A stretch of 64,000 bases of DNA from contig NZ_AOJK01000050.1 in assembly GCF_000336875.1 (NCBI RefSeq), positions 1 through 64,000 on the forward strand. The letters run 5' to 3'. The notes below the pieces were generated by a model, which saw only the letters and a program-made list of their open reading frames with translations, did no database searches and had not been told where the DNA came from. The translations under genes and the position numbers were made by a program. Of this stretch, positions 50,497-52,851 are shown one piece after another (within the stretch, counting starts at the first letter, position 1; each line of letters starts with the position of its first letter). The DNA is from Halorubrum californiense DSM 19288 (GTDB lineage: Archaea; Halobacteriota; Halobacteria; Halobacteriales; Haloferacaceae).

Positions 50497-51732
50497 TCAG
50501 CGGATGACGTCGAGGCCGTTGTTCTTCTCGATCGGCTCGCTGCCGCCGTCGGACTCCCAGCCGCGGTCGGTGCCGCCGGAGACCGCCGGCTCGCCTCTCT
50601 CGCCCGCGGCGCCCGCGGCCTCGGTCGCCTCGGCCGCTCGCTGGCGCGAGTCGCCGAGGTCGTCGCCGTCGACCGCGGCGCGCGACTTGTCGGCCTGCTT
50701 CTGGGTGGAGGGGCCGAGCACCTGCGCGCTCTGGACGCCCGTCATGATCGCCATGACGCGCACCTTCCCCTTGTACTCCTCCTGGATGCGAGCGCCCCAG
50801 ATCACGTTGGCGCTCGCCTCCAGCCGCTCGGTGATGTTGTTCGCGATCCCCTCGGCCTCCTTCAGCGTGAGGTCCGGACCGCCCGTGATGTGGACGAGCC
50901 CGCCCGAGGCGCCGCGGTAGTCGACGTCGAGCAGCGGGTGGTTCATCGCGTCGTTGACCACCTCTTGGGTCTTGTTCTTGTCCTGCGTCTCGCCGACGAG
51001 CATGACCGCGACGCCGCCCTGATTCATGATCGTCGACATGTCCGCGTAGTCGAGGTTGATGAGGCTCGGCTGGGTGATCGTCTCCGAGATCCCCTTCACC
51101 GTCTCCGCGATGATCTGGTCCATCACGGAGAACGCCTTCCCGATCGGCAGGTTCGGCACGTAGTCCAAGAGCCGGTTGTTGTCGAGGACGATGATCGAGT
51201 CGGCTTCGTTGCGGAGGTCTTCGAGGCCCTCCTCGGCTTTCACCGTGCGGGCGCGCTCGACGTTGAACGGCGTCGAGACCATCCCGACGACGATGGCACC
51301 CTGCTCTTTGGCGATCTTCGAGACGACCGGCGCCGCGCCGGTGCCCGTGCCGCCGCCCATCCCGGCGGTGACGAAGACGAGGTCGGCGTCGCCGAGTACC
51401 TCTTTGATCGTGCCCTGGGCCATCTCGGTGGCGCGCTCGCCCATCTTGGGGTCGCCGCCGGCGCCGAGCCCCTGCGTGAGCGACTTGCCCACGAGGATCT
51501 TGGTGTCGGCCTCGATCATCTTGAGGTGCTGTTTGTCCGTGTTGATGGCGACGGTGTCGGCGCCGTCGACGCCGATGTTGTACAGGCGGTTGACCGTGTT
51601 GTTCCCGGCCCCGCCGGCGCCGACGATGACGATCCGGGGGTCCCCGAACTCGTCGTCTCCCATGTCGACGTCATCCATGTCGCGCTGCTCCGCTTCCGCG
51701 TTGTCGAGGGCGTCCTGAACGAGATCTTGCAT
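50497..51732 (-). CDS. ftsZ2: Cell division protein FtsZ2
   Basis: A 411-aa Fts[20 protein letters not shown] (T1), [15 protein letters not shown] (signature), NVDYAD-like [17 protein letters not shown] (T7 region). The [21 protein letters not shown] start and the absence of secE/nusG neighbours, which accompany FtsZ1, favour FtsZ2. FtsZ2 drives ring constriction in haloarchaea. The C-terminal tail is long and acidic (about 70 residues). It is 4 bp after a small RHH gene. Confidence 0.88.
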
Positions 51733-51736
51733 CAGT

Positions 51737-51916
51737 TTACACCTTCGCCCAGTTGCGGTTGCGGCCGCGCTCGTCGCGCTCGCCGTCCTGTTCGTTCAAC
51801 ATGTCGCGGACGGCCGACCGGATCGCCTCGCTCCGGTTCGGGAATTCGCCCGTCTCCACCATCTGTTCGACCTCGTCTATCTGCTGTTTCGGGATTCGTA
51901 GTGTCACACGCTCCAT
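51737..51916 (-). CDS. Ribbon-helix-helix (CopG/MetJ) DNA-binding protein
   Basis: 59 aa from the ATG at 51916. [19 protein letters not shown] is a ribbon strand and helix, then [20 protein letters not shown]. Such short RHH proteins are dimeric repressors. It precedes ftsZ2 by 4 bp, so the pair is one operon. The GTAAGAC boxes upstream are the natural candidates for its operators. Confidence 0.87.
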
Positions 51917-51929
51917 TGGTATTCCCCCG

Positions 51930-52083
51930 GTAAGACGACGAACACGCAACGCGTGTGTCTTACAGCGCGAAACCGCCCGACTGCGGGGAGACGCCCCACA
52001 CCGGACGACCGCTGTAAGACGACCGTCTTACGCAGATGAAATCACCGAGCGAACTATTATAAAACTATCGGTGGGTGTAAGAC
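51930..52083. promoter_or_regulatory. Five GTAAGAC/GTCTTAC boxes upstream of the RHH-ftsZ2 operon
   Basis: GTAAGAC at 51930-51936, 52014-52020 and 52077-52083, and its complement GTCTTAC at 51957-51963 and 52025-52031. Two of them form an inverted pair GTAAGAC-GACC-GTCTTAC (52014-52031). An AT-rich TATTATAAAAC lies at about 52055-52064 between boxes four and five. They look like RHH operators. Confidence 0.68.
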
Positions 52084-52132: not shown

Positions 52133-52729
52133 TTATTGGTCTTTCAAAACGTCCGCTGCCGGGGTCCGGCGTCCGCATCCGGGGCAGAACGCCCAGTCGG
52201 TCCGGAGCTCGTCGCCGCACTCGCAGAACGCTCTGTGCGACTGTTTCTCTCCACAATTCGGGCAGTATACGTGGTCAGAAGGGACGATTTCGCCACATCC
52301 GCCGCAGGCGTTTTCACGCGTTTGCGCGCCCGGACTCGCCTCCGTCTTACGCGCGTTCGGTTCCGTCTCGTCGGTCGTCACACGCACCTCGTCGTCCCGC
52401 TCGTCGGATCCGGCGTTCGGGGCGTCGAGCGTGACGTTTACGTTGATATCGCCGGCGTTTCCGGGCGTATACGCTCGCGTCGCAGCGCCGCCCGCCGGAC
52501 CGAGCCGCTCGTCGAGCGCCGCGTCGAGCCGCTCCGCGATCAGATCGTCGACGCGGTCCGCGAGGGCGTCGTCGACGCTCCCGGGTGACGCGTCGGACGC
52601 GTCGGACGCGTCTCCCTCTCCGCCGAGGTGCGTCCGGAGCGCCTCCCGCATCACCTCGCTTTTGGAGGCGTCACACGCTTCCAGCCGGTCGACGAGGTCG
52701 TCGTCCGCCCGGAAGGGGATCTTGCTCAT
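52133..52729 (-). CDS. RHH and double zinc-ribbon protein
   Basis: 198 aa. The N-terminus MSKIPFRADDDLVDRLEA with SKSEVMREALRTHL is a ribbon-helix-helix. A DASDASDAS repeat and a predicted helix follow. The C-terminus has CGGCG ... CPNCG and CECGD ... CPGCG, two zinc ribbons. It is upstream of the RHH-ftsZ2 operon on the same strand and is divergent from the coiled-coil/SMC operon. It may regulate both. Confidence 0.78.
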   Translation of the reverse strand: MSKIPFRADDDLVDRLEACDASKSEVMREALRTHLGGEGDASDASDASPGSVDDALADRVDDLIAERLDAALDERLGPAGGAATRAYTPGNAGDINVNVTLDAPNAGSDERDDEVRVTTDETEPNARKTEASPGAQTRENACGGCGEIVPSDHVYCPNCGEKQSHRAFCECGDELRTDWAFCPGCGRRTPAADVLKDQ

Positions 52730-52772: not shown

Positions 52773-52851
52773 GTCTGACACGTTTCACGGCGGCGAAACG
52801 TTCAGCCGAACGCCGCCCGAATCATGCGATTTGGTCACACGTGTGTCTGAC
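52773..52851. promoter_or_regulatory. Two GTCTGAC boxes in the divergent promoter region
   Basis: GTCTGAC at 52773-52779 and 52845-52851, differing by one base from the GTCTTAC boxes near ftsZ2. The second sits in GTGTGTCTGACGCAGAT, which parallels GTCTTACGCAGAT at 52025-52037. A TTTATA stretch just after (52857-52862) is about 30 bp before the ATG at 52891. Confidence 0.4.

Follow-up and report, generated by a model that had tools for sequence, protein, structure and literature searches.

The array of GTAAGAC boxes upstream of the cdrS-ftsZ2 operon is a real, class-wide operator of a known haloarchaeal regulatory system. A sequence scan of the window, that is, the whole stretch of 64,000 nucleotides analysed, found five exact copies on both strands within 51930-52083, and the copies at 52014 and 52025 form an inverted repeat with a 4-bp gap that spans 52014-52031. 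The genome holds 56 copies of GTAAGAC in 3,682,872 bp, and the count for the window as a whole is unremarkable (6 vs 3.67 expected). From the genome-wide frequency, ~0.002 copies are expected in the interval that holds the five (Poisson P ~3e-16). Chance clustering is ruled out by the genome count, this probability, the conservation across the class and the occurrence of the pair once per genome. The preliminary description of this DNA had reported five exact 7-bp matches including the 4-bp-spaced inverted pair, and had judged the array to be far from chance; the scan bears out the first statement, and the probability together with the comparative conservation bears out the second. A sixth GTAAGAC is located at 52344-52350 (-), within the linker region of the cdrL reading frame.

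The locus is the published cdrL-cdrS-ftsZ2 locus of the CdrSL-ftsZ2 network, which has been described in Halobacterium salinarum and Haloferax volcanii (PMC7439475, PMC8406309) with the same genes, order and promoter. In that network CdrL has a ChIP site upstream of cdrS-ftsZ2, and CdrS has sites at ftsZ1 and dacZ. The locus and the CdrL ChIP result were already known; new here are the operator code GTAAGAC, its proposed ancestry, its relation to the ftsZ1 site and the 11-bp arrays outside the class. No box for the CdrL site is given in the available main text of PMC7439475, where the word "motif" is absent, and no description of the five-box array was found in the available texts of the two reports. 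The CdrS motif appears in the available text of PMC8406309 as a figure only. A literature search for the GTAAGAC box returned nothing relevant, and no report of direct binding to it was found.

The open reading frames of cdrL, cdrS and ftsZ2 are adjacent on one strand (Table 1), an order that is kept in nearly all loci collected. CdrL possesses an N-terminal RHH region, whose profile matches RHH proteins of the PDB, as well as the CdrL middle region and a double zinc ribbon. R3, T5 and R7 of CdrS are invariant in 21 aligned orthologues. Sequence alignment likewise shows K3, T5 and R7 to be conserved in CdrL, and these residues would be expected to lie where the beta-strand of an RHH dimer contacts DNA. 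The predicted monomer models, with an extended N-terminus and two helices for CdrS and merely an extended N-terminus and helices for CdrL, were uninformative on DNA reading. Position 5 of CdrL in the window (52715-52717) is a proline, MSKIPFR, where 105 of 106 CdrL sequences have threonine, MSKITFR. This residue is at a position expected to face DNA, and the proline may reflect either natural variation or an error in the sequence. Elsewhere the genome also encodes a more distant paralogue of FtsZ. In Haloferacaceae archaeon XH8 the locus lies near both ends of the 2.9-Mb chromosome record (L106/L107, L278/L287), and in one of the two copies the cdrL frame is broken; the duplicate probably represents overlapping assembly ends.

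Table 1. Features of the cdrL-cdrS-ftsZ2 locus in the window. The operon strand is (-); the remarks on the boxes also give the strand on which each exact copy reads GTAAGAC.
Feature	Position	Strand	Basis or remark
ftsZ2	50497..51732	(-)	Tubulin + FtsZ_C Pfam matches
cdrS, 59-aa RHH protein	51737..51916	(-)	RHH_1 PF01402 E 9.8e-9
Box 5, GTCTTAC on operon strand	51930..51936	(-)	exact match, GTAAGAC on (+); adjoins probable ribosome-binding site CGGGGG, directly upstream
Box 4, GTAAGAC on operon strand	51957..51963	(-)	exact match, GTAAGAC on (-); 5' leader
Leader segment between boxes 3 and 4, predicted hairpin	51964..52013	(-)	fold z
Box 3, GTCTTAC on operon strand	52014..52020	(-)	exact match, GTAAGAC on (+); inverted pair with box 2
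Box 2, GTAAGAC on operon strand	52025..52031	(-)	exact match, GTAAGAC on (-)
Predicted transcription start	52032..52036	(-)	inferred from TATA spacing
TATA box TTTTATA, cdrS-ftsZ2 promoter	52058..52064	(-)	sequence
Box 1, GTCTTAC on operon strand	52077..52083	(-)	exact match, GTAAGAC on (+); upstream of TATA, ~-50 from predicted start
cdrL, RHH + CdrL_M + double zinc ribbon	52133..52729	(-)	PF24252 CdrL_M E 6.5e-10, DZR E 4.5e-7
CdrS-type box GTCTGAC (GTCAGAC on cdrL strand), cdrL promoter	52773..52779	(+)	sequence

Regions upstream of cdrS were gathered from the same genus, family and order and from 80 named genome records, giving 181 distinct haloarchaeal loci. Box 2 is exact in 180/181 loci, box 3 in 177/181, box 5 in 166/181, box 1 in 143/181 (162/181 with up to one mismatch) and box 4 in 141/181. 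Across these loci the columns of the pair are 99-100% identical, compared with 30-70% for most flanking columns outside TATA, and the variants mostly retain the outer GT and AC. The gap between boxes 2 and 3 is 2-5 bp, and is 4 bp in 151 of the 181. Of 116 genomes, 114 contain the inverted pair exactly once each, and it is hardly ever found in the reversed control. G203 and G063 are the exceptions: the locus of G203 coincides with that of Hbt. salinarum (L226; four exact boxes, with GTGAGAC as box 2), and box 3 of G063 is degenerate in the same way as that of Haloquadratum walsbyi. The preliminary description had read the boxes upstream of the RHH-ftsZ2 operon as a regulatory switch, had named conservation in other Haloferacales as a check and had taken absence of the boxes upstream of orthologues as grounds for rejection. 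The class-wide conservation supports a regulatory array and removes that ground for rejection, since boxes are found upstream of every haloarchaeal orthologue examined and related boxes even outside the class. In many genera recurrent CGTAAACG, CGTATACG and CGTTTACG words were also seen in the stretch from the cdrL stop to box 1, 150-260 bp upstream of cdrS in L085-L144.

The position of the array relative to the promoter is equally constant. In 99 of 109 loci box 2 lies 32-34 bp from the TATA start, and most of the other loci resemble mis-picks by the simple TATA finder. At this distance the array covers the predicted transcription start, and boxes 2 and 3 would occupy about +3 to +20 if the start lies ~30 bp after the TATA start. 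Box 1 has two main settings that differ by clade. Measured from the TATA start, it either reads GTCTTAC and lies at -18 to -20 or reads GTAAGAC and lies at -30 to -32; the two settings are 11 bp apart and flipped in orientation. A strong promoter has been reported upstream of cdrS in Hfx. volcanii (PMC8406309).

The operators of MetJ, Arc and CopG consist of short boxes that each bind one RHH dimer and repeat at about one helical turn. The pair has the same form of short boxes repeated about one helical turn apart. Unlike those operators, the boxes here are also spread along ~150 bp that include promoter and leader, and there is one pair per genome. NikR, the RHH repressor of bacterial nickel uptake, recognizes the half-sites GTATGAC/GTCATAC. 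GTATGAC is one base from GTAAGAC and occurs among the haloarchaeal boxes as a rare variant, and the reading head of NikR, MQRVT, resembles MERVT of CdrS. However, the NikR half-sites are about two helical turns apart, unlike the 4-bp-spaced pair, and NikR has a C-terminal nickel-binding domain that the 59-aa CdrS, which is RHH only, does not have. RHH control of the transcription of a cell-division gene is also known for aCcr1, the cell-cycle repressor of the Sulfolobales, which according to the available text belongs to another lineage and targets cdvA (PMC7617429).

Which protein reads the boxes? We slightly favor CdrL as the main reader. By ChIP-seq in Hbt. salinarum, CdrL binds reproducibly only upstream of cdrS-ftsZ2 (PMC7439475), and this single reproducible site matches the one pair per genome. 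A second argument for CdrL is that the box changed in evolution while CdrS did not, as discussed below. However, CdrL as the sole possible reader is not sustained. In a profile search with positive controls at E 1e-53 or better, six haloarchaea (G072, G038, G046, G059, G183, G231) gave no CdrL match above background, and all six retain the pair together with the CdrS head MERVTLRIP; in these genomes the pair must therefore be maintained by something other than CdrL. Box 1 is present in 56/70 cases with CdrL vs 1/6 without it (Fisher P 0.003, uncorrected for kinship), a link to CdrL that is only suggestive.

The alternative that survives best is that GTAAGAC is read by CdrS, which would thereby regulate cdrS-ftsZ2 by feedback, with CdrL a later co-regulator or tethered to the DNA by CdrS. 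We regard this as possible but rather doubtful. It would explain why the haloarchaea that lack CdrL keep both the boxes and an unchanged CdrS reading head, and it agrees with the alignment of CdrS with E. coli NikR at MQRVT and the GTATGAC-type half-sites of the latter. It also agrees with L310, a second ftsZ2-like gene in a Haloferax-type genome that is 80% identical to the query and has neither cdrS nor upstream boxes. However, none of the 18 CdrS ChIP sites listed for Hfx. volcanii is at its own promoter (PMC8406309), even though the other Haloferax species examined do have the array, and it is CdrL that binds the region in Hbt. salinarum. The ChIP construct was named NFlag (PMC8406309), and a tag beside the expected DNA-reading strand could alter binding. 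Autoregulation by the 59-aa RHH protein was the proposal of the preliminary description, in which the upstream-encoded CdrL was not mentioned. The operon array and its conservation agree with that proposal, but reading by CdrS is not established, as published ChIP places CdrL and not CdrS on this region (PMC7439475, PMC8406309). The label "repressor-type" given to CdrS is doubtful, as CdrS appears to activate at ftsZ1 (PMC8406309).

Sites related to the array are found at other promoters. ftsZ1 and dacZ are CdrS ChIP targets in Hfx. volcanii (PMC8406309), and the Haloferax ftsZ1 promoter has GTCRGAC-N4-GTCTGAC just upstream of TATA. The cdrS site, GTAAGAC-N4-GTCTTAC, has the same 18-bp layout and differs from it by one symmetric change, the third base of each box being A at cdrS and C at Haloferax ftsZ1; the cdrS boxes are thus not identical to those of ftsZ1 and dacZ. 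The paired boxes of dacZ are looser, of the type GYNNGAC. In Haloplanus the paired boxes of ftsZ1 and dacZ are centred at the published CdrS distances of -50 and -47, with starts based on TATA and a fitted placement. In Haloplanus no such pair was found at the promoters of psmB and panA, genes whose orthologues in Haloferax are bound by CdrS in ChIP; this suggests that the CdrS code deduced here is incomplete. In 72 of 103 loci GTCNGAC also lies shortly upstream of cdrL, up to 80 bp from its start (78 boxes vs 2.1 expected), sometimes with a partner 11 bp away. Since cdrL is missing from the list of CdrS targets in Hfx. volcanii (PMC8406309), a CdrS site at the cdrL promoter is a prediction. 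In the window GTCACACgtgtGTCTGAC is located at 52834-52851, just upstream of the TATA of the DUF7518-smc genes, which are divergent from cdrL, and in other loci of the genus GTCTGAC is again found beside the DUF7518-smc TATA. Judged from these sequences, a CdrS-type site may touch smc too.

Outside Halobacteria, 20 regions upstream of cdrS, taken from other families of the phylum, contain 43 GTCNGAC boxes vs 0.4 expected, and one GTAAGAC. The distances from box to box are exact multiples of 11 bp in 32 of 33 cases from seven families (L145-L164, 190 bp upstream of cdrS); since closely related genomes are included, the 33 distances cannot all be counted as independent events. In many cases the array starts 38-45 bp after TATA. 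These phased GTCNGAC arrays, apparently a phased RHH operator, are of interest in themselves. CdrL is reported to be absent outside Halobacteria (PMC7439475), and arrays before cdrS in its absence also speak for the alternative of CdrS autoregulation. However, R3, T5 and R7 of CdrS are unchanged across the switch from GTCNGAC to GTAAGAC, and a change of reader explains this better than drift of CdrS. It can be tentatively proposed that an ancestral CdrS array with 11-bp phasing was rewritten by a symmetric C-to-A change in the ancestor of Halobacteria into GTAAGAC, a private code read by CdrL. CdrL would then be a newly acquired RHH protein, and sites of the GTCNGAC type would have been left to CdrS at ftsZ1 and dacZ and now also at cdrL.

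Two further explanations were considered. A third, unlinked and universal haloarchaeal DNA-binding protein could read the boxes, and such a protein would account both for their retention in genomes that lack CdrL and for the missing CdrS peak. Other RHH proteins do exist in haloarchaea (weak profile matches), but the locus already encodes two RHH proteins of its own, binding of CdrL is published, and the closeness of the array to the CdrS-type sites points to the same family; we therefore consider a third protein improbable. It is very unlikely that the boxes act primarily in the mRNA, with leader stems (box 2 with 5, 3 with 4) controlling the translation or stability of cdrS-ftsZ2, because the box stems show no compensatory or double-sided changes, the leader has no Rfam match and its median z is only -1.2 without the boxes. 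The leader does fold well (z -4.9 in the window and a median of -4.2 over 181 loci, against shuffles), which is mostly a consequence of the boxes being inverted copies of one another. The inner hairpin is widespread and post-transcriptional control of the operon has been suggested in Hbt. salinarum (PMC8303175), but box 1 is upstream of TATA and flips by clade, and box 4 or 5 is often lost singly. The segment between boxes 3 and 4 has a median z of -2.3 over 180 loci with the boxes excluded, and its hairpin shows a few double-sided changes in Halorubrum-type loci; this hairpin may be a separate RNA feature.

The reading that we put forward, at about even confidence, is an ancestral CdrS operator that was taken over by CdrL in Halobacteria and limits cdrS-ftsZ2 transcription. 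The five boxes would serve RHH proteins as an operator that is part of both promoter and leader, with one dimer gripping each 7-bp pseudo-palindrome. At the 4-bp-spaced pair, 11 bp from centre to centre, two dimers would sit side by side over the transcription start. The occupant in most haloarchaea would most likely be CdrL, encoded immediately upstream. The operator would derive from a CdrS autoregulatory array, with CdrS-type GTCNGAC sites persisting at ftsZ1 and cdrL, and more loosely at dacZ, and the altered GTAAGAC at the cdrS promoter. That boxes lie over the start as well as in the leader suggests occlusion, and occupancy there would most likely limit transcription and keep CdrS and FtsZ2 within the tolerated range. 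It has been shown that cdrS overexpression inhibits growth (PMC7439475), which makes the need for a limiter plausible. However, the expression of cdrL and cdrS-ftsZ2 is positively correlated or uncorrelated, never inverse (PMC7439475), and their co-expression under stress does not favor a simple repressor. Second-site mutations were present in the cdrL deletion that has been published. Box 1 lies as far upstream as CdrS does at ftsZ1 and may aid initiation instead.

CdrS and CdrL control the timing of archaeal division, and the DNA code that links them to ftsZ2 was not defined in the available texts of the earlier reports. The site is kept letter for letter in some 44 genera with its central pair once per genome, and it is thus an exact target for mutation and binding tests. 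The differing box codes offer a reason why CdrS ChIP and CdrL ChIP located different places. The relatives outside the class suggest a way in which one symmetric base change could let a new regulator capture an old promoter. If the tentative hand-over from CdrS to CdrL is true, it would create a two-regulator loop, CdrS to cdrL to cdrS-ftsZ2, and the dosage of the division genes would be insulated from the wider CdrS regulon.
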